NCBI RefSeq assembly: GCF_018882215.1
Contig: NZ_JACVOX010000002.1
Coordinates: forward strand, 310,001-374,000
Direction: 5' to 3'
Source of the DNA: Polynucleobacter sp. AP-Kaivos-20-H2
Lineage (GTDB): Bacteria; Pseudomonadota; Gammaproteobacteria; Burkholderiales; Burkholderiaceae
DNA length: 64,000 bases
In this document: positions 169 to 2,997 of the stretch, in pieces
Layout of the letters: every line of letters begins with the position of its first letter
Numbering within the stretch: the first letter of the stretch is position 1
Translations under genes and position numbers: made by a program
Notes under the pieces: model-generated
What the model saw: only the letters and a program-made list of their open reading frames with translations
The model's database searches: none
What the model was told of the DNA's origin: nothing

Positions 169-657
169 ATGACTCAACCTGCTATTTCTATGATTGTTGC
201 GCGCTCACGCAATCACGTCATTGGCCGTGATAATCAAATGCCCTGGAAGATCTCGGCTGATTTGCAGTTTTTCAAGCGCGTCACCATGGGGCACCCCGTG
301 ATTATGGGTCGCAAGACTTGGGAATCCATTGGGCGTCCCCTGCCTGGACGTCGCAATATCGTAGTAAGCCGCAATGCAGCTTATGAGGCTACTGGCGGCG
401 AATTAGTCGGATCTCTCGATGAAGCCTTGAAGAGTTTGAGTGAATTCCCACGTGTTTTTGTCATTGGTGGTGAACAACTCTTCACGCAGGCATTTCCTAA
501 AGCAGATCGACTCTATATTACGGAGATTAATATGGATGTTGATGGGGGCGATACTTTCTTTACGGTTCCAAATGAATCTGAATGGAAAGAAGTGGAGCGT
601 ACTCCTGGCTCCGAGGGCGATATTACGTTTAGCTTCATTACGCTAGAGCGAAAATAA
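169..657 (+). CDS. folA: Dihydrofolate reductase
   Basis: This 162-residue protein has the usual length for bacterial dihydrofolate reductase, which reduces dihydrofolate to tetrahydrofolate with NADPH in the cytoplasm. Visible family features are the N-terminal strand with NHVIG and MPW (substrate loop), the active-site acid at Asp31 in SADLQFF, the NADPH-binding VIMGRKTWESIG segment and the VIGGEQL glycine pair. It follows thyA by 11 bases, pairing dihydrofolate production and recycling. Its TAA stop overlaps the A-tract of a terminator hairpin that an insertion sequence has split, so termination of its transcript is probably altered. Confidence 0.97.
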   Translation: MTQPAISMIVARSRNHVIGRDNQMPWKISADLQFFKRVTMGHPVIMGRKTWESIGRPLPGRRNIVVSRNAAYEATGGELVGSLDEALKSLSEFPRVFVIGGEQLFTQAFPKADRLYITEINMDVDGGDTFFTVPNESEWKEVERTPGSEGDITFSFITLERK

Positions 658-670
658 AAAAGGACTCCGC
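656..670. terminator. Left half of a terminator split by the insertion sequence
   Basis: Six A residues followed by GGACTC and CGC form the left arm of a hairpin. Its partner (CGC, GGAGTCC, five T) lies at 2116-2130 on the far side of the insertion sequence. Removing 671-2115 and one CGC copy rebuilds the palindrome GGACTC-CGCG-GAGTCC flanked by A- and T-tracts. That is a bidirectional intrinsic terminator between the convergent genes folA and the parvulin gene. Confidence 0.8.
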
Positions 671-695
671 TGAACTGACCCACAAAAGTTGGACA
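671..695 (+). repeat. Left terminal inverted repeat of the IS
   Basis: The 25-base repeat starts TGAACTGACCCACAAAAG and is exactly complementary to 2091-2115. Host terminator arms just outside are also inverted, so the apparent repeat extends beyond the element. The CGC duplication marks the true boundary. Confidence 0.95.
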
Positions 696-723
696 TCAAA
701 TCCAACTCAAAAGGGTCAGCCTC

Positions 724-1257
724 ATGTCCAAATACAGCAAAGACTTTAAGCTAGAAGTCATTCATCACTATCTGTCAGGTAAAGAAGGATTTACCGCAAC
801 GGCAAAACGGTATGGCGTTAAATTTACCTATGTCCGCACATGGGTTCATGCCTTTAAAGCTCATGGTCAAAAAAGTCTAACCAAGACTTACACTCATCAC
901 CCCAGTGCCTTTAAGCTTGCCGTACTCAAGGTAATGGCGCAAGATCAGCTCTCCATTAATCAAGCGGCAGCCCACTTTAATATCGCCTCTCCCAGCACTA
1001 TCTCCGTATGGCAACGCCTCTACAATGAAGGCGGTATTACAGCCCTAGAACCTAAACCCAAGGGACGGCCACCCATGTCAAAACGAAGTGAGATCCAAGC
1101 ACTCCTAGCTAAACCTTCAGAGCAGCTTACGCATGAAGAACTCTTGCTGAAGTCGCACTATTTAGAGGTGGAGAACGCTTACTTAAAAAAGCTCGAAGCC
1201 TTAGCTCAGCAAAAGTACTTGGCAAACAAGAACAGGTCCAAGTCGTCACCGAGTTAA
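724..1257 (+). CDS. IS150-type OrfA (InsJ-like, DNA-binding)
   Basis: This 177-residue protein resembles InsJ of IS150. It has two successive helix-turn-helix segments (about residues 5-50 and 60-110, the second with SINQAAAHFN) and a C-terminal leucine-rich helix ending ENAYLKKLEALAQ. In the IS3 family OrfA binds the terminal repeats and supplies the N-terminal part of the fused transposase. The last helix contains the slippery A AAA AAG at 1185-1191. A -1 shift there joins it to OrfB. Confidence 0.92.
   Translation: MSKYSKDFKLEVIHHYLSGKEGFTATAKRYGVKFTYVRTWVHAFKAHGQKSLTKTYTHHPSAFKLAVLKVMAQDQLSINQAAAHFNIASPSTISVWQRLYNEGGITALEPKPKGRPPMSKRSEIQALLAKPSEQLTHEELLLKSHYLEVENAYLKKLEALAQQKYLANKNRSKSSPS
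1185..1191 (+). other. Programmed -1 frameshift site of the IS
   Basis: The heptamer A AAA AAG sits in the orfA frame exactly as X XXY YYZ. Shifting back one base enters the orfB frame, which is open from here to 2084 and gives a fused OrfAB of about 453 residues. IS150 is known to use A-rich slippery sites of this type. Confidence 0.8.
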
Positions 1258-1271
1258 GGCAGCAGTACCCT

Positions 1272-2084
1272 TTGCAAACTATCCTAGGCATTGCCAATAT
1301 GGCCAGGAGTGTCTACTACTACCAGCTAAGTGCTAGTGCTAAAGTCGACCCCTATCTGGATGCTAAGACTCAAATTGGCGCAATCTACCATCGCCACAAG
1401 GGCTGCTATGGCTATCGGCGAGTCCATTTAGAGCTGAGCAACCAACATCGTTACCTTGATCCCAAGACCGTACAAAAGCTGATGGGGCAACTAGGGCTTA
1501 AATCCCTTGTTAGACCTAAACGCTATCAGTCCTATAAAGGCGGTATTGGTAAGGTAGCACCCAACTTATTAGAGCGTAACTTTGCGGCCAGTAAACCCAA
1601 TCAGAAGTGGGTTACTGATGTGACGGAGTTCAACATCAGGGGTGAGAAGGTATACCTCTCGCCGATCTTAGATCTTTATAACCAAGAGATCGTCTCCTAT
1701 GAGATTAGCGATCGGCCACAGATTAGCAGCGTCATGCAGATGCTCCAAAGCGCATTTAAACAACTGGGACCAAAAGACAAACCCATGCTGCACTCAGATC
1801 AGGGCTGGCAATATCAAATGGGGTTTTATCAACAGGCTATAAAGAAACAAGGCATTACTCAAAGCATGTCTAGAAAAGGTAACTGCTTAGACAACGCAGT
1901 GATGGAAAACTGGTTTGGGATTATGAAAACAGAGTTCTTCTATCGGAAGAGGTTTGAAAGTATCGAATCATTTAAAACGGAGCTTAAGGAATACATCCAC
2001 TACTACAACCATGATCGGATCAAACAAAAACTAAAGGGATTGAGCCCGGTTCATTACCGAACTCAATCCCTTCTGGTAACCTAA
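1272..2084 (+). CDS. IS150-type OrfB transposase (InsK-like, DDE integrase)
   Basis: This is the catalytic part of the transposase. The retroviral-integrase-like core shows the three acidic positions: Asp in KWVTDVTEF, Asp in MLHSDQGWQY, and Glu in DNAVMENWFGIMKTE. An HTH_21-like segment (IYHRHKGCYGYRRVH) precedes it. A TTG at 1272 is only a nominal start. The frame is open upstream to the slippery site at 1185, so the working protein is most likely the frameshifted OrfAB fusion, as in other IS3-family elements. No internal stops or missing motifs are seen. Confidence 0.93.
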   Translation: MQTILGIANMARSVYYYQLSASAKVDPYLDAKTQIGAIYHRHKGCYGYRRVHLELSNQHRYLDPKTVQKLMGQLGLKSLVRPKRYQSYKGGIGKVAPNLLERNFAASKPNQKWVTDVTEFNIRGEKVYLSPILDLYNQEIVSYEISDRPQISSVMQMLQSAFKQLGPKDKPMLHSDQGWQYQMGFYQQAIKKQGITQSMSRKGNCLDNAVMENWFGIMKTEFFYRKRFESIESFKTELKEYIHYYNHDRIKQKLKGLSPVHYRTQSLLVT

Positions 2085-2090
2085 TTAAAC

Positions 2091-2115
2091 TGTCCAACTT
2101 TTGTGGGTCAGTTCA
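2091..2115 (-). repeat. Right terminal inverted repeat of the IS
   Basis: This is a perfect 25-base complement of 671-695, ending in CA. It follows the orfB stop (TAA at 2082-2084) by six bases. Confidence 0.95.
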
Positions 2116-2130
2116 CGCGGAGTCCTTTTT
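2116..2130. terminator. Right half of the split terminator
   Basis: The 3-bp target duplication CGC is followed by GGAGTCC and five T, the complement of the arm at 656-670. It lies 24 bases beyond the stop of the minus-strand parvulin gene. Confidence 0.8.
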
Positions 2131-2154: not shown

Positions 2155-2997
2155 TTACTGAACAACAATCTTTGCATCTTTTGCAATCTGACCTAAGAAT
2201 TCATATTGCTTTCTTTGAGTCATACCAGCACGAATAGCTGCCTTAGCTTGCTCGAATGCTGGCGGCTTGCTTGATTTCTTATCTTCTAACTTGATTAAAT
2301 ACCAACCTTGTTGCATCTGAATTGGGGCTGGTGAAACCTGACCTTTAGAAAGAGTCATCAATACAGAAGCTAATTGTGGCGCTACTTGCCCAGGCTGAAT
2401 CCAACCTACAGCACCGCCTTGCACCTTATTTGGCGCCAAAGAAACACTCTTAGCAACCTTATCAAATGACTCCCCTTTTTTAATGCGCGCCAATGCTGCT
2501 TGTGCATCAGCTTCAGTAGCGACAGTGATATCGCTCACCTTGTATTCATTAATCATCCCTTGAGGACCTAAGGATGCAACCTCTTTGTTGTACTCAGCCT
2601 GAACATCAGCATCAGTAATTGGGTTTTTAGCCATATATGTAGACAACTCGAGATCCGCCAAATAGTTCTGACGAATCATCATCAGTTGTGTGTTGGCTTT
2701 TTCTGAATTTGCTAAACCATCTTTTTCCGCCTGCTGCGAAAGTAAGAGCACTTCAATGTACTTCTCAATCACTACTTTGCGCAATTCTGGAGAATCCTTT
2801 TGCCCTTGAGAAAGGGCAACTTTAATTCCCTGCTCCACCATGTCATTGGTAATGATGGTTCCATTAACAGAAGCTGCTGCATTAATGGGCAATCCACTCT
2901 GTTGCGCATAAGTGCCGCTAACAAGCGCGCTCGTCAATACACCTGCGGCAATCAAGCGCACTACCATTAGATTGAATACAGAGGAAAAAGGTTTCAT
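2155..2997 (-). CDS. Periplasmic parvulin-type peptidylprolyl isomerase (PpiC/SurA-like)
   Basis: The protein has 280 residues. An N-terminal hydrophobic segment ending near TYAQQS is a Sec signal peptide (about residues 1-32). A SurA-like helical N-domain (NAAASVNGTIITNDMVEQGI) is followed by a PpiC rotamase domain at about 150-250 with the family pattern KKGESFDKVAKSVS and GGAVGWIQPGQ. It should act in the periplasm, isomerising proline bonds and helping outer-membrane proteins fold. It ends about 40 bases from the IS and converges on folA, with which it once shared a terminator. It has one rotamase domain, unlike two-domain SurA. Confidence 0.88.
   Translation of the reverse strand: MKPFSSVFNLMVVRLIAAGVLTSALVSGTYAQQSGLPINAAASVNGTIITNDMVEQGIKVALSQGQKDSPELRKVVIEKYIEVLLLSQQAEKDGLANSEKANTQLMMIRQNYLADLELSTYMAKNPITDADVQAEYNKEVASLGPQGMINEYKVSDITVATEADAQAALARIKKGESFDKVAKSVSLAPNKVQGGAVGWIQPGQVAPQLASVLMTLSKGQVSPAPIQMQQGWYLIKLEDKKSSKPPAFEQAKAAIRAGMTQRKQYEFLGQIAKDAKIVVQ

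Follow-up and report, generated by a model that had tools for sequence, protein, structure and literature searches.

A probably IS150-like insertion element in the loop of a predicted folA terminator and the hairpin targets of its relatives

Does an insertion sequence (IS) that lies exactly in the loop of a transcription terminator owe its position to chance, to selection, or to a transposase that seeks such sites? The question is raised by an IS3-family, probably IS150-like element of 1445 base pairs (bp) situated between folA and a convergent parvulin gene of Polynucleobacter sp. AP-Kaivos-20-H2, in a stretch of 64,000 nucleotides (nt) that is referred to here in its entirety as the window, and whose positions serve as coordinates throughout. 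We consider it very likely that this is a copy-and-paste element whose transposase inserts at the centre of short inverted repeats with duplication of 3-4 bp, preferring the loops of intrinsic, usually bidirectional, terminators, a judgement that includes the symmetry recognition and terminator replacement proposed below. At the level of sequence, insertion is loop-centred in most of the scored relatives across several phyla, the hairpins existed before the element arrived, the folA terminator has been hit repeatedly, no orientation bias relative to tandem neighbouring genes was detected, and hairpins lie near both ends of the element.

The folA terminator, empty and occupied

Removal of the element together with one copy of the trinucleotide CGC yields AAAAAGGACTCCGCGGAGTCCTTTTT, a perfect 26-bp palindrome. 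Folded as RNA, the restored 38-nt site gives an 11-bp stem closed by the loop CGCG (-14.7 kcal/mol, z -5.6), a result equalled by none of 200 shuffles, and the split palindrome is a predicted bidirectional terminator shared by folA and the convergent parvulin gene. Sites were scored by comparing the left flank with the right flank, unjoined, a hairpin being called at a score of at least 9; the window site scores 14.5, an insertion in a palindrome loop of the IS1397 type. A preliminary description of this DNA had placed an IS150-type element precisely in the loop of a bidirectional terminator, had maintained that deletion of 1445 bp and one CGC rebuilds the hairpin with the 3-bp target in its loop, and had named folA and a convergent parvulin gene as the neighbours. 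Direct reading and the fold bear out the first statement, the palindrome is as perfect as the second would have it, and matches to PF00186 (dihydrofolate reductase) and Rotamase confirm the third.

The region 3' of folA was compared in 88 loci of the genus, selected mostly in order of closeness by folA from 180 genomes with that gene. A convergent parvulin gene follows folA in 47 of these loci and was not found there in 38; all 47 contain an intergenic hairpin with a score of at least 9, which is enlarged by a remnant in one (L054) and unsplit in the other 46, thus providing the empty site in related genomes for which the preliminary description had proposed to look. In 3 of the 88 loci (own genome, G075 and G101) an element end is found instead. 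Given the unsplit hairpin at the folA locus of relatives, the target hairpin predates the insertion.

The same hairpin is occupied in four genomes. The copy in the window's own genome is bordered by the duplication CGC; that of G075 is bordered by CTA and is 78% identical to the window copy over its length; that of G101 lies in the opposite orientation and is 98% identical across the 127 bp seen before the contig ends; and in G185 the arms enclose a 30-bp remnant whose ends resemble those of the element. Because the duplication and identity in G075, the orientation in G101 and the remnant ends in G185 all differ from the window copy, we infer that these four occupations are separate insertions. 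Contig C3 was considered as the other end of the G101 insertion and rejected, as it holds a different terminator; the right side of the G101 insertion is unseen.

Insertion sites of the relatives

Relatives of the element were gathered by DNA and by OrfB, and their ends were located by script; the survey also took in the own genome, the best 80 of 480 loci from a species collection, and the 21 genomes behind those loci. Matches by DNA (E<=0.001, fragments included) occur in 56 of 186 genomes of the genus, and matches at E<=1e-60 in 8 of 300 genomes of the order. In two further sets, the genus around an Acinetobacter genome and the family around a Kluyvera genome, matches at the latter level occur in 9 of 99 and 10 of 149 genomes, respectively. 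Leaving out 51 matches that lack an end or a flank, 110 unique sites with both flanks were obtained, which became 108 (including one IS150 and one ISEcB1 copy) once L129 and L202, whose ends are doubtful, had been dropped; L384 was not scored, nor were L376-L379, annotated at the same yfbM-nuoN site as L375. The transposases of the relatives show 45-100% identity, and their hosts belong to Polynucleobacter, Acinetobacter, the Enterobacteriaceae, the Bacillota and the Bacteroidota.

A hairpin score of at least 9 is reached at 86 of the 108 unique sites, compared with 1.7% of 10,800 positions drawn at random from these loci. One group of 15 sites, inserted in uptake-sequence repeats (see below), was left out of a null of mispaired flanks since its flanks all match each other; without it, 71 of 93 sites reach the score, against 11% of 8,556 mispaired pairs, and the mispaired null that includes it is uninformative (19 of 110 above its 99th percentile). 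Sites with a target duplication score at least 9 in 65 of 77 cases, and sites without one (uptake-sequence group excluded) in 14 of 24, which would fit the presence of some recombinants among the latter. The duplication is centred in the loop: among the 65 duplication-bearing hairpin sites it lies equally far from the left and right stem in 22, the two distances being unequal by one in another 22, and the loop measures 2-8 nt in 63. Three sites added later, two of which reach the score, bring the total to 88 of 111. The preliminary description had regarded the target as structured, as with IS1397, and had suggested that further copies be checked for split hairpins; the empty sites and the 86 loop insertions, among them all three own-genome copies with both flanks (scores 14.5, 12.9 and 9.9), support that view. 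Several contigs of the own assembly carry pieces of related elements at or near their ends (L004-L007, L011, L013-L015, L017), so the genome probably holds more copies than could be scored.

Terminator-type hairpins, defined by a score of at least 9 plus a run of four or more A or of four or more T, accommodate 68 of the 111 elements. A further 15 lie within inverted pairs of GCCGTCTGAA, which we take to be the Neisseria DNA uptake sequence, 13 in REP-like (repetitive extragenic palindromic) repeats assigned by eye (5 of them with a score of at least 9), and 7 in A/T-tract sites whose stem is weak; the other 8 belong to no such class. Runs of four or more T on the right and of four or more A on the left are each present in 84 of 111 cases, the reverse arrangement in 3 and 4, and the right T-run shows no clear tendency to exceed the left A-run (28 vs 44, 39 equal, p 0.08). 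By a simple open reading frame (ORF) rule applied to 92 sites, the neighbouring genes are convergent in 50, divergent in 5 and tandem in 37.

All 15 insertions between inverted GCCGTCTGAA pairs are copies of a related 1.24-kb element in G313 and G474 (L165, L166, L171, L172, L176, L177, L179, L180, L182-L188), so that one relative appears to address DNA-uptake-sequence hairpins. Two other relatives occupy repeated GTCCCC...GGGGAC-like palindromes, the first kind in G240 (L164, L170, L175, L181) and the second in G548 (L223, L227, L230, L233, L235, L236) and G506 (L224, L228, L231); by reading, the loop of the G548 and G506 palindromes is about 17 nt long, and 8 of these 9 sites fall below the threshold. 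A quick tree was built from 68 representatives plus 6 outgroup rows, without IS407/IS51 reference proteins; in it the outgroup stands apart (support 86) and IS150 is nested in the set, 26 of 71 inner branches having support below 80. The terminator label is spread across the whole tree, including rows from the Bacillota, Bacteroidota, Acinetobacter and Enterobacteriaceae, with the REP, uptake-sequence and IS150 rows nested inside it, which suggests that terminator targeting is the older state.

The element and the hairpins it carries

The features of the locus are listed in Table 1. As in other members of the IS3 family, the element has two overlapping frames, encoding an OrfA with a helix-turn-helix and an OrfB with an rve (DDE) domain (Pfam), its ends TGAAC...GTTCA are of the TG...CA type, and the CGC duplication falls within the 3-5 bp range; by analogy with that family, its AAAAAAG heptamer is presumed to be the -1 frameshift site that gives OrfAB. 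Its close named relatives are from Polynucleobacter. A promoter scan of positions 560-2300 found none, vs 2.1 expected.

Table 1. Coordinates of the split terminator, the inserted element and the adjoining genes in the window
Feature	Position	Strand	Basis or remark
folA (dihydrofolate reductase)	169..657	+	PF00186, E 9.1e-56; reads toward the insertion site
Left half of split terminator: A-tract 656-661, left arm GGACTC 662-667	656..667		sequence read directly; empty sites in relatives
Target duplication CGC, left copy, in hairpin loop	668..670		sequence read directly; RNA fold
IS3-family (probably IS150-like) element, 1445 bp	671..2115	+	direct reading, protein domains, DNA matches
Left terminal inverted repeat	671..695	+	25/25 matches to right repeat
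Left-end hairpin	671..724	+	5' arm is the left repeat; 3' arm GGGTCAG, overlapping the presumed ribosome site, adjoins the orfA ATG
orfA, helix-turn-helix protein	724..1257	+	HTH_28, HTH_Tnp_1
AAAAAAG heptamer, presumed -1 frameshift site for OrfAB	1185..1191	+	position only; inside orfA near its end
orfB, DDE integrase-type transposase	1272..2084	+	rve E 2.4e-25, rve_2, HTH_21; open frame of 315 amino acids starts further upstream
Antisense terminator-like hairpin within orfB 3' end, 18 pairs, tail AGTTTTTGTT	2033..2073	-	faces transcription from parvulin side
Right terminal inverted repeat	2091..2115	+	direct reading
Target duplication CGC, right copy	2116..2118		sequence read directly
Right half of split terminator: GGAGTCC 2119-2125, T-tract TTTTT 2126-2130	2119..2130		sequence read directly
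PPIC-type parvulin gene, convergent	2155..2997	-	Rotamase, E 3.5e-16; reads toward the site from the right

Each side of the element carries a hairpin of its own. In the window copy, the first 60 nt fold at -20.9 kcal/mol (z -5.2 for 640-735), and over all elements the first 60 nt reach z<=-2 in 109 of 111 (median -5.1 against letter shuffles), compared with 5 of 111 when the last 60 nt are taken. In 86 of 111, the first ATG beyond position 38 is preceded within 12 nt by a run of four or more T. For the left end, RNAalifold gave no consensus pairs in 57 rows; the evidence for this hairpin is therefore the folding of single sequences relative to letter shuffles. The antisense hairpin, located 26-110 nt from the right end, reaches z<=-2 in 102 of 111 elements vs 8 of 111 for mid-element sequence, and its pairing is kept despite base changes (783 of 826 cells paired in 59 representatives vs a mean of 680, standard deviation 5, in shuffles that ignore relatedness). 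The final codons of orfB (GLSP...QS) also form a strong antisense hairpin in which letters change and pairing stays, a coding sequence under RNA-structure constraint. One element (L383) has a hairpin score of 9.6 at its site without either end hairpin.

These hairpins modify one claim of the preliminary description, namely that folA and the parvulin gene have lost their shared terminator. The terminator hairpin is indeed split, but simple loss becomes a weaker statement given that the element brings its own hairpins on both sides; as these may replace the broken terminator, read-through is unsafe to infer. Remnants may point to another fate of such sites. Palindromic versions of 40-53 bp that retain both ends were found in 9 of 186 genomes of the genus, at 10 places in all (L357-L366; seven of 53 bp and one each of 52, 51 and 40 bp), 8 of them in hairpins with a score of at least 9, and they lengthen the stem rather than break it. 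Five remnants with a 3-4 bp duplication may be mobile.

Weighing the explanations and comparison with known systems

That the palindromic flanks belong to the element, or are made by it, with no pre-existing target, might be suspected because they prolong the terminal inverted repeats outward; since 46 relatives have an unsplit hairpin at their orthologous folA loci, as Escherichia coli K-12 has at sseA, and since stem sequences vary between sites, the chance of this is negligible. Survivorship, in which insertion is widespread and only harmless copies persist (for instance those in terminators between convergent genes), fits the predominance of convergent neighbours noted above. Harmlessness leaves unexplained, however, why insertions are centred in small loops at most duplication sites and why one hairpin has been hit repeatedly. 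IS3-group controls (insF-like; K-12 IS3B plus genomes of the window's order, nearly all from that order) also speak against it, as 0 of 18, and 0 of the 7 with a duplication, reach the score once 13 of 31 rows without usable ends or flank are dropped, and we regard survivorship as highly improbable. A target consisting of the transcription complex or the RNA hairpin (a polymerase paused at a terminator) instead of DNA symmetry would suit the predominance of terminator-type sites. Such a target would not account for the lack of a detected orientation bias relative to neighbouring genes (12 of 29 tandem hairpin sites co-oriented, p 0.46), or for relatives that use REP-like and uptake-sequence palindromes, which may themselves act as terminators; it seems to us improbable.

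A transposase that reads composition or bendability (A-tract, short GC-rich core, T-tract), the hairpin being a by-product because intergenic DNA of this kind is terminator, deserves more attention, although we think it unlikely. The A- and T-tracts are the strongest shared letters in the aligned sites, and intergenic background windows matching that make-up are themselves mostly hairpins (43 of 51, with 7 decoys), indistinguishable from insertion sites (23 hairpins vs 2 decoys, p 0.71). A first decoy test, in which 204,633 background bases gave 10 hairpin, 8 intermediate and 22 decoy windows and the sites 23, 1 and 2, was rejected as support for hairpin recognition, since the intergenic difference disappears under this wider rule and p 7e-5 is obtained only when coding DNA is included, a comparison confounded by selection against insertion into genes. 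Relatives are nevertheless found in palindromes of different composition, and these REP-like, uptake-sequence and IS1397 palindromes favour structure over composition; mispaired flanks of the same make-up, moreover, reach the score in only the 11% of pairs given above.

Recognition of hairpins by the transposase has, beyond this intergenic comparison, several further observations to contend with. Scores below 9 are found at 22 of 108 sites, of which 8 share a long-loop REP-like repeat and some, lacking a duplication, may be recombinants, and L020 has a duplication but no stem. A terminator scan of the region gave 2 sites vs 1.7 in shuffles, which is no excess, the orientation test is small, and the left-end hairpin of the window copy has no T-tract (longest T-run 1), so that masking of the presumed ribosome site is the most that it could do. 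Among close relatives, IS150 (five records, four sites) and ISKpn8 (one record) have a hairpin target in 0 of 6 records, the highest score being 5.0, and all six lack the left-end hairpin (z 0.1 to 0.5); hairpin targeting is therefore not a trait of the whole group.

The mechanism that we propose begins with the target. At the junction of an IS3 circle, two repeats face each other head to head across some 3 bp, an arrangement that the target shares, and the transposase would recognise the two-fold symmetry of the target, as palindromic duplex or extruded hairpin, and handle it much like the head-to-head repeats of the element's own circle junction. Once in place, the left-end hairpin would stop or mute transcripts that enter from the gene upstream, and transcripts arriving from the convergent gene would be stopped by the antisense hairpin in orfB. 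Traffic at the chosen site would thereby be kept out of the element, which would, we infer, partly replace the terminator that it has split. A broader reading, which we put forward tentatively as a reasonable possibility, is that of a multi-phylum IS3-family lineage built for life in terminators: it would home on loops by symmetry, split them and swap in its own pair of hairpins (left-end, mostly with a T-tract, and antisense in orfB), its remnants (mostly 51-53 bp palindromes) would leave enlarged terminators behind, and targeting of REP (IS1397), GCCGTCTGAA (the group described above) and hok genes (IS150) would be later departures.

Targeting of palindrome loops by IS3-family elements at REP sequences is already known; here it appears as the general habit of a lineage that crosses phyla and has ordinary terminators as its main target. 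Transposition would gain a predictable and probably nearly harmless address downstream of genes, and such insertions offer a possible route for the splitting, replacement and rebuilding of terminators in evolution. A laboratory E. coli element, ISEcB1, makes recognition of the hairpin by the transposase testable, as one of its filled sites has a known empty counterpart. Among the literature matches listed, from a search mostly outside subscription journals, no report concerns IS3-family targeting of intrinsic terminators or paired end hairpins, and the portions available of PMC6211511, PMC9208149, PMC8450116, PMC10433421 and PMC6382973 contain nothing on IS3-family terminator targeting.

Systems outside the IS3 family share part of this behaviour. 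According to the accessible part of the account, IS1272 and TnSha1 of staphylococci (IS1182 family) repeatedly target, in either orientation, hairpins that have little primary sequence in common and are often terminators (PMC4923244). They differ in belonging to an unrelated family and in inserting bluntly, with loss of part of the hairpin and no duplication (PMC4923244, same part), whereas at the window site CGC is duplicated and both arms are complete. Group IIC introns likewise insert at terminator or attC stem-loops, as described in the part consulted of PMC7923331, but they are retroelements that work through RNA, and their insertions follow the stem-loop (or enter it, at some attC sites) and are not loop-centred.

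Within the family, IS150 and ISKpn8 resemble the window element in OrfB (53-56% identical) and in an antisense hairpin near the right end (z -2.9 to -4.0). The five IS150 records (L189, L367, L368, L369, L370; four sites) adjoin hok-type toxin-antitoxin genes, unlike the rest of the lineage. In a comparison of the window element with E. coli genomes, all 20 of the matches listed (among 3,396 records) name ISEcB1, an element of E. coli B strains; its OrfB is 55% identical, and both of its scored sites are terminator-type hairpins. In BL21 it splits such a hairpin after sseA (score 21.4) that is intact in K-12 MG1655, and the second site, between yfbM and nuoN, scores 10.8; an empty counterpart of the latter was not found in K-12, where other genes occupy that place. 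ISEcB1 differs from the window element in its host and in a left-end hairpin that is followed by a T-tract.

IS1397 provides a precedent for insertion into a loop. Both copies in our set (L380 and L381) lie in loops, with scores of 15.5 and 12.3, one with a 4-bp duplication and the other with none by script, in sequence that we take to be palindromic units, and both also carry the left-end and antisense hairpins. In the part available of PMC1525189, IS1397, ISKpn1 and other IS are described as inserting into REP sequences, and IS1397 of E. coli and ISKpn1 of Klebsiella, the latter known to us by description only, share with the window element both membership of the IS3 family and insertion in a palindrome loop. 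On the same partial account, their targets are a repeated REP family, whereas the target in the window is an orthologous intrinsic terminator and those of its relatives are terminators of unrelated sequence.

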